Source: Agrococcus lahaulensis DSM 17612 (GTDB taxonomy: Bacteria; Actinomycetota; Actinomycetes; Actinomycetales; Microbacteriaceae). From it: a stretch of 64,000 nt of DNA. The stretch lies in NCBI RefSeq assembly GCF_000425105.1, contig NZ_KE384303.1, positions 248,001-312,000 on the forward strand, read 5' to 3'. The stretch's first letter is position 1. The number at the start of each line of letters is the position of its first letter. The position numbers were made by a program, and so were the translations under genes. The notes beneath the pieces were generated by a model, which was given only the letters and a program-made list of their open reading frames with translations, made no database searches and was not told where the DNA came from. This document shows, piece after piece, positions 40,521-46,172 of this stretch.

Positions 40521-40935
40521 AGCGCTCGGGTGCCGGGAGCGCGCTCGCGAAGTCGACCCACCGCATCCGCTCGACGACGCCGTCGGCAGCCGCCGCGAGC
40601 CGCTCGTCGTCGGTCACGAGCACGTCGGCCTGCAGCGATGCGACGGCGAGCAGCTCGGCCGGCCCGATCTCGGCCCAGTCGAGCCGCGCGGCGATGCGCC
40701 ACGCGACCGACCGCGAGACGCGGTCGGCGAGCAGCCGCACCTTGAGCGCTGCGATCGCCTCGAGCTGCGCACGGCCCTCGGCCTCGTCGAGCGTGCCCGC
40801 GCGCACCTCGTCGTAGAGCAGCTGCATCGCCTGCGAGCGCAACGCCCCGGTGCTGACGAGGGAGTGCTCGCCGACGTCGACGCGCTCGCGCACGATCCGC
40901 AGGGCCGTCGGTGCGTCGATCGCGAAGCGGGTCAT
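40519..40935 (-). CDS. PIN-domain protein (VapC-like), no antitoxin
   Basis: A 138-residue protein with the acidic layout of PIN ribonucleases: FAIDAPTAL (D7), a central helical part (SQAMQLLYDEV, WRIAARLDWAEIGPAELLAVA) and the C-terminal LQADVLVTDDERLAAAA. Active VapC toxins cut tRNA or rRNA and are paired with a small antitoxin just upstream. Here the upstream gene is an M20 peptidase whose stop overlaps this start (TGATG), and I see no antitoxin. It may be an orphan or housekeeping PIN nuclease. Confidence 0.75.
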   Translation of the reverse strand: MTRFAIDAPTALRIVRERVDVGEHSLVSTGALRSQAMQLLYDEVRAGTLDEAEGRAQLEAIAALKVRLLADRVSRSVAWRIAARLDWAEIGPAELLAVASLQADVLVTDDERLAAAADGVVERMRWVDFASALPAPER

Positions 40936-42230
40936 CAGCAGCTCGACTCGATGAGGTCGGCGTACCAGCGGCAGCCGGCGAGCCACGTGTCGACCCGGAT
41001 GCGCTCGTCGCGCGCGTGCAGCGTCAGCCGCTCCTCGCGCGTCATCTCGAACGGCGCGAAGCGGTAGACGCGGTCGGTCACGCGGTGCGCGTGGCGGCCG
41101 TCGGTGCCGCCGAGCATGACGTACGGCACGGTCTGCACATCGGGCCGAGCGCGAGCGATCGCGGCCTCGATCGCGTCCCAGCCGGGACCGTCGGAGGGGC
41201 TCTCGGGGCTCGGCCCGTGCCCGTGCAGCACTTCGAGCTCGACGCCCGGGTCGGCGATCGCGCGCCGCACGTGCTCGAGCGTCTCGTCGACCGAGGAACC
41301 GAGCGCGATGCGCGCGTTCACGACCGCGGTCGCCTCCTCGGCGAGCGCGTTCGGCGCCGCCGCGCCCTGCAGCTGCGTCACGACCGCGGTGGTCGCGAGC
41401 ATCGCCCGCGTCTCGTCGCCACGCGCGAGGATCCGCTCGACGAGCGGCCGAGCCCGCCGCACCCGCCGCAGCACCGCGCCCTGCGCGCCCGGCGCATCCG
41501 CCCCGAGCAGCTCGAGCATGCGGAGCGCCGGCTCGGGCAGCGAGCGGGGGAAGGGGGAGCGGTCGAGCCGCCGGATGGCGCGCGCGAGCCGCGACGTCGC
41601 CGGCAGCCGCGGCGGCGTCGACGCGTGCCCGCCCACCTGGGCCACGCGCATCCGGATGTTCGCGAAGCCCTTCTCGGCCACTCCGACGACCGCGACGTCG
41701 CGCGAGAGCCCCGTGATCGGCGGCTCGATGATCGCGCCGCCCTCGTCGAGCGCCCACGCGGGCCGCACGCCGCGCGCGTCGAGCTCGGCGATCGCCGTCG
41801 CGGCGCCCGTACCCATCGTCTCCTCGTCCTCGCCGAAGACGAGCCACACGTCGCGCGCCGGCGCGAAGCCGGCCTCGAGCAGCGCGTCGATCGCGACGCA
41901 GATCGCGACGAGCGAGCCCTTGTCGTCGAGCGTGCCGCGCCCCCACACGTGCGTGCCGTCGCGGTGGCCGGAGTAGGGCGGATGCGTCCAGCCGGCTTCC
42001 GGGGCGGGCACGACGTCCTGGTGGGCCATGAGCAGCGCCGAGCGGCCCTCGCCGCGGCCCGGCCAGCGCGCGAGGATCGTGTCGCCGACGAGCTCGAGCT
42101 CGAGCGCGGCGAAGAGCCGCGGGAAGCGCTCCTCGAGCGCGGCCCGGAACGCGGGCAGCTGCTCGGGGCGCTCGGTAGGCACGCGCACGAGCGCGACGAG
42201 GTGGTCGACGGCGTCATCGGCGATCAGCAC
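40935..42230 (-). CDS. M20 family metallopeptidase
   Basis: A 431-residue di-zinc peptidase of the ArgE/DapE/carboxypeptidase type. Metal ligands are visible: H70 (LLMAHQDVV), D102 (GRGTLDDKG), E136/E137 (VFGEDEETMG) and a later Asp and His, with the dimerisation-domain GGHAST. The GTG start has TAGCCT (42237-42242, complement) 6 nt upstream. It is translationally coupled to the downstream PIN gene. The substrate is unknown; dipeptide or acyl-amino-acid cleavage is usual. Confidence 0.92.
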   Translation of the reverse strand: MLIADDAVDHLVALVRVPTERPEQLPAFRAALEERFPRLFAALELELVGDTILARWPGRGEGRSALLMAHQDVVPAPEAGWTHPPYSGHRDGTHVWGRGTLDDKGSLVAICVAIDALLEAGFAPARDVWLVFGEDEETMGTGAATAIAELDARGVRPAWALDEGGAIIEPPITGLSRDVAVVGVAEKGFANIRMRVAQVGGHASTPPRLPATSRLARAIRRLDRSPFPRSLPEPALRMLELLGADAPGAQGAVLRRVRRARPLVERILARGDETRAMLATTAVVTQLQGAAAPNALAEEATAVVNARIALGSSVDETLEHVRRAIADPGVELEVLHGHGPSPESPSDGPGWDAIEAAIARARPDVQTVPYVMLGGTDGRHAHRVTDRVYRFAPFEMTREERLTLHARDERIRVDTWLAGCRWYADLIESSC

Positions 42231-42303: not shown

Positions 42304-43170
42304 GTGTCCGTCGAGCACAACACCCGCGAGATCGAGGACGGGGTCGTCACCGACCTGCGCCAGCGGATGACCTACGGCTCCTACCTGGGCCTCGACACGC
42401 TGCTCGCGTCGCAGCACCCGCGCAGCCGCCCCGAGCACCACGACGAGATGCTCTTCATCATCCAGCACCAGACGACCGAGCTGTGGCTGAAGCTCGTCAT
42501 CCACGAGCTCGACGACGCGCGCCGGCTGCTCGCGGCCGACGACCTCGGCGCGGCGCTCAAGCGCATCGCGCGCGTCAAGCACATCCAGGAGGTGCTGACG
42601 CAGCAGTGGTCGGTGCTCGCGACCCTCACGCCCACCGAGTACGCGCAGTTCCGCGGCGCGCTCGAGGGCGCGTCCGGCTTCCAGAGCGCGCAGTACCGCA
42701 TGGTCGAGTTCGCGCTCGGCAACAAGCACGAGCGGATGCTGCAGGTCTTCGAGTCGAGCCCCGAGGAGCACGCGGCGCTCGCGGCCGAGCTCGAGCGCCC
42801 GAGCCTCTACGACGAGTTCCTGCGCTTCCTCGCGCGCCACGGCCACGACGTGCCGGCCGAGGTGCTCGAGCGCGACGTCACGAGGGCGCACGTCTACACC
42901 GAGTCGCTCGTGCCGGTCCTCCAGCGCATCTACGAGGGCGCGGCCGAGCCCGGCGCGGCCGACTGGCGCGCCTACGAGACGTGCGAGGAGCTCGTCGACC
43001 TCGAGGACAACTTCCAGTTCTGGCGCTTCCGGCACCTCCGCACCGTGACTCGCACGATCGGCCGCAAGACCGGCACGGGCGGCTCGAGCGGCGTCGACTT
43101 CCTCGCCCGCGCGCTCGACCTGACGTTCTTCCCCGAGCTCTACGCCGTCCGCACGCGGATCGGCGCGTGA
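42304..43170 (+). CDS. kynA: Tryptophan 2,3-dioxygenase
   Basis: Heme enzyme that opens the indole ring of L-tryptophan to N-formylkynurenine. The 288-residue protein has TYGSYLGLDTLL, the substrate-site EMLFIIQHQTTELWLKL (about 50-66), LEGASGFQSAQYR and the C-terminal RTIGRKTGTGGSSGVDFL with the TGGSSG loop. The GTG start is supported by GAAGGAGG 6 nt upstream. It is the first of three coupled genes, kynA-amidohydrolase-kynU, and overlaps the next start by 4 nt. Confidence 0.96.
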   Translation: MSVEHNTREIEDGVVTDLRQRMTYGSYLGLDTLLASQHPRSRPEHHDEMLFIIQHQTTELWLKLVIHELDDARRLLAADDLGAALKRIARVKHIQEVLTQQWSVLATLTPTEYAQFRGALEGASGFQSAQYRMVEFALGNKHERMLQVFESSPEEHAALAAELERPSLYDEFLRFLARHGHDVPAEVLERDVTRAHVYTESLVPVLQRIYEGAAEPGAADWRAYETCEELVDLEDNFQFWRFRHLRTVTRTIGRKTGTGGSSGVDFLARALDLTFFPELYAVRTRIGA

Positions 43171-44198
43171 CCGCACCGGTCGTCGCCCGAGTCGCGCACG
43201 CGCGCATCGGCGGTCGGTGGGTGACGGATGCGGTGGTCGAGCTGAGCGCGACCGGCATGCGGCTCGTGCCGGAAGACAGGGCGCCGCGGCGCATCGCGCG
43301 CATCGAGGGTGCGCTGCTGCCGCCGCTCACCGACGCGCACGTGCACGTCGGGCTCTGCGCGGCGACGCGAGGCGAGCCGACCGCGCTCGGTCGCGTGCTC
43401 GACCTCGGCTGGGCGCCGAGCGAGCTGCCGGGGCTCAAGCGCGCCGTCGAGACCGCGCACCGGGGCGTCGAGGTGCGATTCGCCGGGCCGTTCCACGCGG
43501 CCGTCGGCGGCTATCCGTCGGATCGCTCCTGGGCACCGCCGGGATCCGTCGTCGAGCTCTCGACCCCGACCGAGGCAGTGCGCGCGGTGCGCGCCCAGGT
43601 GCAGGCTGGCGCAGCGGCGATCAAGATCACGCTCAGCAGCGACGACGGGCCCGTCCTCGGCGACGAAGCGCTGGCCGCGCTCGTCGCCGAGGCGCGCGCG
43701 GCCGGGCTCCCGGTCGTCGCCCACGCGCGCGGCGCGGGGCAGGTGGAGCGAGCGATCGCAGCCGGCGTCGACGTGCTCGCCCACGCGCCGTGGACCGAGC
43801 GCCTCGACGAGGCGGTGATCCGCGAGGCCGCGACCCGGCAGACGTGGATCTCGACGCTCGCGATGCACGAGCGCGACGGCGACGGACGAGCCCTGGCTCG
43901 CGCGACCGACAACCTGGCCCGCTTCGCTGCGGCGGGCGGGTCCGTCGCGTACGGCACAGACCTCGGCAACGGGCTCGACCGCTTCGACCTCGACCCGGCC
44001 GAGGTCGCCGCGCTCCGCCGGGCCGGCATCGACGGCAGCGCGCTCGTCGACGCGCTGCTCGCGGAGCGGCTGCTCCCGCCCGGCCCGATGATCGGCATCG
44101 TCGCGGCCGACGTCGTCGACGACGAGTCGCTGCTGGCCAGCCTGCACCGCGCTCGATCGCTGCCCTACACCTGGTTCGACCTGGAGGCATCCGCATGA
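43167..44198 (+). CDS. Amidohydrolase-superfamily protein, candidate non-KynB formylkynurenine formamidase
   Basis: A 343-residue amidohydrolase with a complete binuclear metal site: H58 and H60 (LTDAHVHVG), K153 (AIKITLSS, possible carboxylated lysine), H186 (VVAHARG), H206 (LAHAPW) and D265 (YGTDLGN). It lies between kynA and kynU with 4-nt overlaps on both sides. This is the place where the pathway needs N-formylkynurenine formamidase, and neither KynB nor an alpha/beta-hydrolase formamidase is present here. What is seen: fold, metals, context. Inferred: hydrolysis of the N-formyl amide. Alternative: a different amide or imide hydrolase. Confidence 0.83.
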   Translation: MTAPVVARVAHARIGGRWVTDAVVELSATGMRLVPEDRAPRRIARIEGALLPPLTDAHVHVGLCAATRGEPTALGRVLDLGWAPSELPGLKRAVETAHRGVEVRFAGPFHAAVGGYPSDRSWAPPGSVVELSTPTEAVRAVRAQVQAGAAAIKITLSSDDGPVLGDEALAALVAEARAAGLPVVAHARGAGQVERAIAAGVDVLAHAPWTERLDEAVIREAATRQTWISTLAMHERDGDGRALARATDNLARFAAAGGSVAYGTDLGNGLDRFDLDPAEVAALRRAGIDGSALVDALLAERLLPPGPMIGIVAADVVDDESLLASLHRARSLPYTWFDLEASA

Positions 44199-45439
44199 CC
44201 GACCTCGCCCGACGCGCCGCCGAGCTCGACGCCGCCGACCCGCTCGCCGAGCACGCCGACCGCTTCGTCCGCGGCGGCGACGTCCTCGCCTACCTCGACG
44301 GCAACTCGCTCGGACGGCCGCTCGCGTCGCTCCCCGAGCGCTTCGGCGACTTCATCGCCCGCGACTGGGGCGAGCGGCTCATCCGCTCGTGGGACGAGCA
44401 GTGGATGCGTCGGCCGTACGACCTCGGGGACCGCATCGGCGCGCTCGTGGGCGCGGGCCCCGGGCAGGCGTTCGTCGGCGACTCGACGACCGTGCTGCTC
44501 TACAAGCTCGCGCGCGCGGCCGTCGACGCGCAAGCGCAGCACGGCCGCACCGAGATCGTCATCGACGACGACAACTTCCCGAGCGACCGCTTCATCGTCG
44601 AGGGCATCGCCGCCGAGCGAGGCTGCACGATCCGCTGGATCGAGGCGGACCCCGCCGCCGGCGTCTCGCTCGAGCAGGTCGAGGCGGCGGTGGGTGAGCG
44701 AACGGCGCTCGTGCTGCTGAGCCACGTCGCCTACCGCTCGGGCTTCGTCGCCGACGTCGCCGGCATCACGCGCGCCGCGCACGACGCGGGCGCGCTCGTG
44801 CTGTGGGACCTGTGCCACTCGGCAGGCGTCATCCCCGTCGGCCTCGACGAGCACGGCGTCGACCTCGCGGTCGGCTGCACCTACAAGTACCTGAACGGCG
44901 GGCCGGGCGCGCCCGCCTTCGGCTACGTGCGCGCCGACCTGCACGAGCGGCTCGAGCAGCCGATCCAGGGCTGGATGGGCGCGGCCGACGTGTTCGCGAT
45001 GGGGCCTCGCTTCGAGCCCGCCGCCGGGCTCGGCCGCTTCCTGAGCGGCACGCCGCCGGTGCTCGCGACCGTCGCGCTCGAGGCGATGGTCGAGCTCGTC
45101 GAGGCGGTCGGCATCGACGCCGTCCGGGCGAAGTCCGTCGCGCTCACCGACTTCGCCGAGGCCGCGCTCGCCGAGCACGTGCTGCCGCTCGGCGCGCGGC
45201 TCGCGAGCCCGCCCGCCGGGCCGCACCGCGGCAGCCACCTGACGGTGACGCATCCGTCGTTCCGGGAGGTCAACGCGAGGCTGTGGGAGCGGGGCGTGAT
45301 CGGCGACTTCCGCGCGCCCGACGGCATCCGCATCGGGCTCTCGCCGCTCTCGACGACGTTCGCGGAGGTCGAGGTGGGCGTCGCCGCCCTTGGGGAGGAG
45401 CTGCGCCGGGCGCTGCAGCGGTCGGGGGAGGGCCGCTAG
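44195..45439 (+). CDS. kynU: Kynureninase
   Basis: PLP enzyme that splits kynurenine to anthranilate and alanine. The 414-residue protein has the family start YLDGNSLGRPL, VGDSTTVLLYKLA, DLCHSAGVIPVGL and the PLP lysine in GCTYKYLNGGPGAPAF (about 230), then IQGWMGAADVFAMG. The ATG overlaps the upstream stop (ATGA). Alanine released here could be used by the alanine dehydrogenase encoded at the start of the window. The stop shares CTAG with the convergent lipoprotein gene. Confidence 0.96.
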   Translation: MTDLARRAAELDAADPLAEHADRFVRGGDVLAYLDGNSLGRPLASLPERFGDFIARDWGERLIRSWDEQWMRRPYDLGDRIGALVGAGPGQAFVGDSTTVLLYKLARAAVDAQAQHGRTEIVIDDDNFPSDRFIVEGIAAERGCTIRWIEADPAAGVSLEQVEAAVGERTALVLLSHVAYRSGFVADVAGITRAAHDAGALVLWDLCHSAGVIPVGLDEHGVDLAVGCTYKYLNGGPGAPAFGYVRADLHERLEQPIQGWMGAADVFAMGPRFEPAAGLGRFLSGTPPVLATVALEAMVELVEAVGIDAVRAKSVALTDFAEAALAEHVLPLGARLASPPAGPHRGSHLTVTHPSFREVNARLWERGVIGDFRAPDGIRIGLSPLSTTFAEVEVGVAALGEELRRALQRSGEGR

Positions 45440-46056
45440 CCGCGGATGACCTCGTGCACCGCGACGGCGGCGTCGACGGCCTGCTGGCCCGTGAACGCCG
45501 CGTCGCCGCCGTCCCAGCCGACCGAGACGGTCTCGAACTGGTCGAACAGGTTGACGGTGCCCGAGAACGGCTCGCTCAGCACGGGCGGCTCGCCGACGCC
45601 CATCACGAACAGGCCGCGCTCGTTCGCACCCGCGTCGGGCACCATGAGGCGCGAGCCCGAGAGCGCGACGAGCTCGTCGGGGGAGAAGGTGATGCCGCTC
45701 AGCGTGAGCCGGAGCGTGTCGTCGCCCGCCGTCCACGCGCACTGCCGCTCGACCGCGACGTCCTCCTGATCCTGCGCGTCGCTCGCCGCCTGGTCGAACG
45801 AGAGGCCGCTCGTGAGCTCGGCAACCGCGCCCTCGATCTCGGCGCACTCGGGGAACTCGGTCGGCGGCGCGATGGGGTAGCCCTCGGGCGCGTCGGGATC
45901 GCCCTCGGCCGTGACCGGCGACTCGCTCGCTCCCGGGAGCGGCCCGAGCGCGGTCGGTGCCGGCGTGGGCTCGGCGCTCGGCTCCGGCGCGGTCGACGAG
46001 CAGCCGACGAGCGCGAGCGCGGCGAGGGCGGCGAGGGGGAGGGTCAGGCGATGCAC
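45436..46056 (-). CDS. Lipoprotein, function unknown
   Basis: A 206-residue secreted lipoprotein: a short basic start, a hydrophobic core (LTLPLAALAALA) and lipobox LVGCSS near residue 18, then a Pro/Thr/Glu-rich linker and a globular domain with TEFPECAEIEGAVAEL and VAVERQCAWTAGDDTLRLT. The GTG at 46056 is preferred over an upstream in-frame start at 46128 because it puts the signal peptide at the true N-terminus and TATCGT (46063-46068, complement) is 6 nt before it. I recognise no family. Confidence 0.78.
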   Translation of the reverse strand: MHRLTLPLAALAALALVGCSSTAPEPSAEPTPAPTALGPLPGASESPVTAEGDPDAPEGYPIAPPTEFPECAEIEGAVAELTSGLSFDQAASDAQDQEDVAVERQCAWTAGDDTLRLTLSGITFSPDELVALSGSRLMVPDAGANERGLFVMGVGEPPVLSEPFSGTVNLFDQFETVSVGWDGGDAAFTGQQAVDAAVAVHEVIRG

Positions 46057-46172
46057 CCCAGCACGATACCCGCGTCGCCCATGCGCGCGGGCTAGGCTCG
46101 GGGTCGGGAGAACCCCGCCCCCACGCACGCCACCGCGCCCGATCGGCGCGCCGCCACGGCAAAGGAGCCACC
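46057..46172. promoter_or_regulatory. Divergent promoter region lipoprotein / aspA
   Basis: On the minus strand TATCGT (46063-46068) is 6 nt from the lipoprotein GTG. On the plus strand TAGGCT (46093-46098) lies 74 nt before the aspA GTG, whose ribosome-binding site is AAAGGAG (46161-46167). Nothing else was recognised. Confidence 0.5.

Follow-up and report, generated by a model that had tools for sequence, protein, structure and literature searches.

Kynurenine formamidase (EC 3.5.1.9) carries out the second step of the route from tryptophan to anthranilate. Two different nonorthologous enzymes for the reaction, an alpha/beta hydrolase and a cyclase, were described in a paper of 2014 (PMC4217691). 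The kynurenine formamidases of animals are alpha/beta hydrolases (PMC5171882), and the cyclase-type enzyme, KynB, holds two zinc ions in a site that resembles those of amidohydrolase-superfamily enzymes though its fold differs (PMC4243253). Here we analyze a 64,000-nucleotide stretch of the Agrococcus lahaulensis DSM 17612 genome (the window; contig NZ_KE384303.1, positions 248,001 to 312,000), in which a gene for an amidohydrolase-superfamily protein, here called amd, lies between kynA (tryptophan 2,3-dioxygenase) and kynU (kynureninase). Because it sits there, where the known second-step enzyme is missing, amd is very probably a third type of enzyme for the step.

An amidohydrolase has been linked to this reaction in the mycemycin clusters, where the authors propose that MymD/MyeD, a protein of 513 amino acids (aa), cleaves N-formylkynurenine, on the basis of gene content, a feeding experiment, and a myeD deletion that abolished mycemycins A and B; the mym cluster also has dioxygenase and kynureninase genes (PMC5867642). 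Amidohydrolases of benzoxazole clusters are described as condensing enzymes (PMC12118335). By its description, MymD/MyeD is longer than amd (513 versus 343 aa). No paper describing the amd family as a formamidase was found in a literature search whose scope left most subscription journals and all bioRxiv preprints outside; what is new here is the pairing, the reaction and the superfamily being already known.

Operon structure and gene identities

A sequence-only reading of the window had proposed a kynA-amidohydrolase-kynU unit fused by 4-nucleotide (nt) overlaps, and this was borne out: three open frames run head to tail on the + strand (Table 1), with a 4-nt overlap at both amd junctions, "fused" here meaning overlapping stop and start codons and not a fused protein. 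The kynA product matches PF03301 above the Pfam cut-off (213.3 bits) and the NCBIfam model TIGR03036 slightly below its cut-off (375.9 versus 390.7 bits), and the kynU product matches KYNU_C (PF22580) above the cut-off (83 bits) and TIGR01814 (NCBIfam) below its strict cut-off (214.2 versus 246.4 bits). The amd product passes the Pfam cut-off for Amidohydro_1 (PF01979; 29.7 bits versus 25), beyond which nothing more specific in Pfam or NCBIfam scored over its cut-off. At E ≤ 0.01 it matched neither PF04199 nor TIGR03035, nor any alpha/beta-hydrolase family of Pfam, and its score to the Xaa-Pro dipeptidase model NF051886 was 46.9 bits, where the cut-off is 500.

The gene order is kept in all 16 intact copies from the genus (L002 to L017, the first being the window's own; labels in L denote loci and those in G genomes), so the arrangement is not due to chance, and 14 of the 16 have the 4-nt overlap at each of the two junctions. 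Copies in named genomes also point to Agrococcus as the genus of the window: compared with it, A. pavilionensis has an amd that is 86% identical and a kynA that is 98% identical.

Predicted fold and metal site

Subtype-I binuclear amidohydrolases are marked by an HxH pair, a carboxylatable lysine, two histidines, and an aspartate, which end barrel strands 1, 4, 5, 6, and 8. The six ligands that the sequence-only reading had assigned to amd (H58, H60, K153, H186, H206, and D265) are all present, and they are invariant both in an alignment of 21 close relatives and in 40 rows made up of the window and 39 loci from named genomes (alignment A2; 41 of the 80 named loci introduced below, mostly near-duplicates or loci with uncertain starts, were omitted by choice). 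In the AlphaFold2 model (mean pLDDT of 95.9) the chain is predicted to form a (beta/alpha)8 barrel, with H58 in strand 54-59, K153 in strand 152-157, and H186 in strand 183-188. We take amd to be a (beta/alpha)8-barrel amidohydrolase with a predicted subtype-I binuclear metal site, the arrangement of its ligand residues being that of this subtype.

The nearest solved fold is that of the Lys/Arg carboxypeptidase Cc2672 (3mtw; Foldseek E of 7e-20, Z of 29.9, 3.7 A over 324 residues, 23% identity), in which the lysine and both later histidines of amd also align in sequence, followed by arginine carboxypeptidase (3be7), Xaa-Pro dipeptidases, and ochratoxin-cleaving amidohydrolases, with molinate hydrolase and phenylurea hydrolase B lower among the matches. 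These closest folds are hydrolases of amide, urea, or carbamate type. The ochratoxin-cleaving enzymes 4c65 and 8ihq and phenylurea hydrolase B (4whb) share the fold of amd with Z scores of 28.1, 28.1, and 25.5, but they have other substrates and 15 to 24% identity; judged by their names, they presumably cleave amides or ureas that carry aromatic groups. The Cc2672/Xaa-Pro dipeptidase group of PF01979 acts on peptides, whereas amd has a signature of its own, consisting of GGYP (114-117), W122, P208, and GTDLGNG (263-269). Its elements GGYP, W122, and GTDLGN are kept in the kyn-linked clade, and the whole signature is absent from the other amidohydrolases compared (L024 to L026, L028, L188 to L190, L193, and L194), which have parts of it at most.

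In the proposed pathway, KynA would open the indole ring of tryptophan to give N-formyl-L-kynurenine, amd would take off the formyl group to yield L-kynurenine and formate, and KynU would split kynurenine into anthranilate and alanine. By analogy with characterized relatives, amd would bind two divalent metals, one on the side of His58, His60, and Asp265 and the other on the side of His186 and His206, bridged by a carboxylated Lys153; a metal-bridging hydroxide would attack the formamide carbon, and Asp265 would pass a proton to the leaving aniline nitrogen. We infer the activity, substrate, metals, and mechanism of amd from context.

Distribution of amd and linkage to kyn genes

The sequence-only reading had asked whether other kynA-kynU loci hold the same gene, and we find that amd recurs beside kynA or kynU across actinobacteria. 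Our survey, in which each of 84,980 species was represented by a single genome, gave 424 pattern matches, 372 of which encode a relative; the best 80 were kept as named loci. In 77 of these 80, amd adjoins kynA and/or kynU (within the stretch fetched, 58 with both, 14 with kynA only, and 5 with kynU only), the other three, all from Clavibacter, having neither; 11 of the 14 kynA-only loci have 4.8 to 5 kb of sequence after amd. A single unbroken match covers most of the amd model in 73 of the 80, and the other seven comprise L051, which is cut by a contig end, L065, which is broken, and five in which one frame was scored as two pieces. Most named loci are from Microbacteriaceae, and the genera represented include Microbacterium, Leifsonia, Cryobacterium, Agromyces, Nesterenkonia, Mumia, Rhodococcus, Nocardia, Isoptericola, Cellulosimicrobium, Saccharopolyspora, Actinoplanes, and Nocardioides; an Embleya plasmid record holds a further kynA-amd-kynU. 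Gene order varies, with kynA-kynU-amd in Actinoplanes (L090).

A search from the kynA side found this gene in 102 of the 299 genomes of the family, and amd lies beside it in all 30 of the family kynA loci fetched, which were the best-scoring. The amd profile was run on 80 of the 102 genomes (16 were covered by other searches, and 6 low-scoring ones were omitted) and identified amd in 54, always directly downstream of kynA; 50 of these placements were made by script, the others being G137, G174, G206, and G336, whose overlapping ends the script had scored as far. Of the 26 family genomes lacking amd, 16 are small and have a divergent kynA. In the class-wide amd search, 6 candidates were scored out of the tens that each genome yielded, and absence is a weaker statement there; no amd was found in the kyn loci read from those genomes.

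Relatives more distant from amd, but sharing its GGYP, W, and GTDLGN elements, were also seen in kynA-bearing genomes of three other families (L181 to L186, from G433, G461, G383, G378, G397, and G364), with no kynA or kynU in the fetched stretches; these copies are possibly an unlinked formamidase there. Saccharopolyspora elongata has an amd fragment in its second kyn locus (L328), and the search flagged an in-frame stop in the amd matches of G206 and G103.

Known formamidases in the genome and in related genomes

KynB resembles amd in the reaction proposed for the latter and in being a binuclear metal hydrolase, but it has another fold and belongs to another sequence family, with a PF04199 domain and an HxGTHxDxPxH motif. 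The alpha/beta-hydrolase formamidases (AFMID/KFA; PF20434) have a serine hydrolase fold (HGG.W, G.S.G) with no metal site and often follow kynA-kynU; they are like amd in standing in kyn loci, namely, those of Streptomyces-like genomes, six family members lacking amd, and three genus-mates of the window. The sequence-only reading had asked for a search of the genome for both, and in the window's genome no KynB over the cut-off and no KFA-like hydrolase was detected. The sole PF04199 protein of this genome scored 74.5 bits to TIGR03035 (KynB; cut-off of 223), a KFA-type query of the Streptomyces type gave no match at E ≤ 1e-5, and the hydrolase profile described below gave no score above 42 bits, a value that came from a frame of 671 residues. 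No TIGR03035 match at E ≤ 0.001 was found in 7 of the 16 operon-bearing genus genomes, the window's being one of the 16. KynB above its cut-off was found in none of 79 kynA genomes, with or without amd, with sub-cut-off matches in 39 of them, and a regular expression for the KynB motif, a crude filter, found none in 65 kynA stretches (L140 to L164 and L195 to L234, some from the same genome).

Eight loci of genus code g134, which would correspond to Streptomyces, have kynA-kynU followed by an alpha/beta hydrolase (in two pieces in L198) and no amd; the one such hydrolase scanned matched PF20434 and has HGGAW and the serine motif GHSAGG. The Streptomyces formamidase SCO3644 was reportedly described by Zummo et al. 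in 2012. As far as the evidence goes, we reject an identity of amd with SCO3644, given these eight loci, and SCO3644 would instead be their kyn-linked alpha/beta hydrolase. The same kynA-kynU-hydrolase order is found in orf3245-orf3244-orf3243 of S. roseosporus (PMC9058172).

Among ten proteins scanned with Pfam were eight kynA neighbors from lineages lacking amd. One of the eight matched nothing, and the other seven fall into families with no relation to the known enzymes (carboxyltransferase, EAL/GGDEF, amylase, patatin, RibF, methyltransferase, and carbohydrate kinase); several of the genomes concerned have the hydrolase at another place. In G064 (L230, 2794-6050), ribF (riboflavin kinase/FAD synthetase) lies directly upstream of kynA-kynU, and in G198 (L283, 5833-6759) the gene after kynA-kynU encodes a regulator of the PaaX family, and the locus shows no clear formamidase.

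Alternation of amd with an alpha/beta hydrolase

The survey further revealed that an alpha/beta hydrolase replaces amd elsewhere, even within the window's genus, which strengthens the formamidase interpretation. A Streptomyces-type hydrolase query was run on 43 kynA genomes; in the 17 with amd no match was better than 2e-6, whereas of the 26 without a kyn-type amd, 20 matched at 3.3e-14 or better. The six without a hydrolase match were G032, G145, G378, G443, G494, and G503; amidohydrolase matches of a more distant kind occur in G378 and G494. Nine of the 26 are family members; the hydrolase was matched in seven, in six of which it lies in the kyn locus (Table 1).

We then have a larger comparison from a profile (A3) built from 14 kyn-linked hydrolases and run on 80 kynA genomes. 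The best score in the 62 genomes with amd was at most 93 bits, with a strong match in none, and 16 of the 18 genomes lacking amd scored 127 to 336 bits (in G032 as two overlapping pieces), 3 of these 16 having contributed sequences to the profile. The other two were G145 (59 bits) and G320 (74 bits; 86% complete). There is thus a near-complete mutual exclusion between amd and the alpha/beta hydrolase, which rarely coexist. When compared to the Protein Data Bank (PDB), profile A3 matched the Drosophila kynurenine formamidase 4e11 at 74 bits, in seventh place behind several esterases. PDB entry 9x6a, deposited as a carboxylesterase, scored 333 bits, and this sequence match suggests that it may be a kynurenine formamidase.

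The alternation extends into the genus. Among its 24 genomes in the sample, counting that of the window, a close amd stands between kynA and kynU in 17 (with a broken frame in G017), and G003, G013, and G015 have the hydrolase directly after kynU (kynA-kynU-hydrolase; 234 to 256 bits); no dioxygenase and no close amd were detected in G009, G010 (65% complete), G021, and G023. In a quick kynA tree of 100 rows picked by choice (68 amd and 32 hydrolase, genomes with neither being left out, and some branches weak), the partner enzyme changes at least 11 times; a sign test on this tree is circular, as each row had been given one enzyme label, and we rely on nothing from the tree but the lower bound of 11 changes. 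The kynA sequences of the three Agrococcus genomes with the hydrolase cluster with those of other hydrolase-type operons, weakly at some branches; therefore, in this genus the operon was probably exchanged whole, and not amd alone.

Weighing the formamidase assignment

The operon, the conservation, the metal ligands, the predicted fold, and the near-complete mutual exclusion with the hydrolase form the basis on which we consider amd very likely to be the kynurenine formamidase of its operon, a non-orthologous replacement of KynB and KFA. This is the role that the sequence-only reading had given it, and operon context, survey, and hydrolase replacement support it, the activity itself being deduced from them.

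Several points weigh against this assignment. The split between 93 and 127 bits was chosen after the scores had been seen and the genomes are related, so that the counts are not independent and Fisher's exact test of amd versus hydrolase (6e-15) overstates the case; the alpha/beta hydrolase of these species is itself a presumed formamidase. A PF03301 dioxygenase was not detected in six genomes with amd, namely, the three Clavibacter genomes and G057, which have amd only, and G027 and G058, which have amd and kynU; in G508, L056, L076, L086, and L109, amd accompanies kynU, and kynA was detected at a separate place. Conversely, neither amd nor the hydrolase was found in the kynA genomes G145, G320, G443, and G503; G494 has a distant amidohydrolase match and no hydrolase match, G198 has only a weak hydrolase match, and the 16 small-genome family members with a divergent kynA, which lay outside the hydrolase search, lack amd. 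PF04199-type matches below the cut-off occur in G443 (99 bits), G503 (55 bits), and G494 (101 bits). Finally, amd is broken in some otherwise kept kyn loci, by decay or by sequencing error: it lies in two frames in G017 (L289), has an in-frame stop in Frigoribacterium L065 (the same match as L273 of G199), and is reduced to its first half, still between kynA and kynU, in G201 (L187).

The amd copies of Clavibacter and of G057 (L287) have the full signature and lie near ABC-transporter ATPase genes, and they are possibly a formamidase for imported formylkynurenine. In Nocardioides sp. Soil797 (L109, 4941-8562), amd and a divergent kynU (36% identity) are followed by a gene of FAD-binding monooxygenase type, as if the route continued to 3-hydroxyanthranilate.

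One alternative, which we regard as unlikely, has amd acting after KynU, with kynureninase turning N-formylkynurenine into N-formylanthranilate and amd serving as an N-formylanthranilate amidohydrolase, presumably EC 3.5.1.68. The chemistry on an aryl formamide and the operon would be the same, and L-kynureninase is described as turning N-formylkynurenine into formylanthranilate (PMC9058172). Against this, in 14 of the 80 named loci kynA and amd were found but kynU was not, albeit kynU may lie elsewhere in those genomes, and the gene that stands in for amd in sister operons belongs to the alpha/beta-hydrolase class, as do the kynurenine formamidases of animals.

It is also improbable that amd has a side role, such as the clean-up of acylated or damaged kynurenine or a dipeptidase activity, with the formamidase step left to the PF04199 protein of the genome, to another enzyme, or to spontaneous hydrolysis. 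That protein does exist, dipeptidases and carboxypeptidases come closest to amd among the named entries of NCBIfam and the PDB, and Clavibacter and G057 have kept amd although no kynA was detected there. The low score to the dipeptidase model NF051886 given above nevertheless speaks against such a role, as do the 7 of 16 amd-bearing genus genomes in which TIGR03035 has no match of any strength and the mutual exclusion of amd and hydrolase, which a side role does not predict. The idea that amd merely hitchhikes, its association reflecting inherited operon structure in one clade, might draw on the preponderance of Microbacteriaceae and on the apparent exchange of whole operon types in Agrococcus, but it is hardly credible given the association in Nesterenkonia, Mumia, Rhodococcus, Nocardia, Isoptericola, Saccharopolyspora, Actinoplanes, Cellulosimicrobium, Nocardioides, and Embleya, the differing gene orders, and the 11 or more partner switches on the kynA tree of chosen rows.

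The genes flanking the operon are a divergent M20 peptidase gene and a convergent frame with a DUF3558-like match, neither of which looks like part of the pathway. The frame beside the PF04199 protein, to judge by its translation, looks like an NCS1-type permease.

Table 1. Coordinates of the operon, its neighbors, and related features (window positions unless a contig or locus is named)
Feature	Position	Strand	Remarks
kynA, tryptophan 2,3-dioxygenase, 288 aa	42304..43170	+	GTG start behind GGAGG, TGA stop; PF03301, TIGR03036
amd, amidohydrolase-superfamily protein, 343 aa, proposed N-formylkynurenine formamidase	43167..44198	+	GTG start, TGA stop; PF01979
kynU, kynureninase, 414 aa	44195..45439	+	ATG start, TAG stop; TIGR01814, KYNU_C PF22580
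kynA/amd stop-start overlap	43167..43170	+	Sequence GTGA
amd/kynU stop-start overlap	44195..44198	+	Sequence ATGA
M20 peptidase gene	40935-42230		Divergent from operon
Frame with sub-cut-off DUF3558 match	45436-46128		Convergent with operon
PF04199 cyclase-family protein, 223 aa	C2:80810-81430 (L001 1324-1995)		Adjoins permease-like frame
Clavibacter amd	L046 4926-5945; L079 4950-5924; L085 4947-5930		Full active-site signature
Hydrolase in kyn locus of family members lacking amd	G049, G154, G215, G264, G177, G127

Implications

Our findings lead us to think it likely that this amidohydrolase represents a third class of kynurenine formamidase that evolved independently of the other two, which would be the usual enzyme for the tryptophan-to-anthranilate route in Microbacteriaceae, would also occur in many other actinobacteria, and would alternate with the alpha/beta-hydrolase class even within one genus. 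The second kyn step looks like a gap in these actinobacterial genomes, and naming amd would fill that gap across a large group. The GGYP/W/GTDLGNG signature helps to annotate one branch of a very large superfamily, and the swap within the genus gives matched pairs for genetics. If the assignment is true, kynurenine formamidase would exist in three unrelated folds, two of them built around two metal ions.

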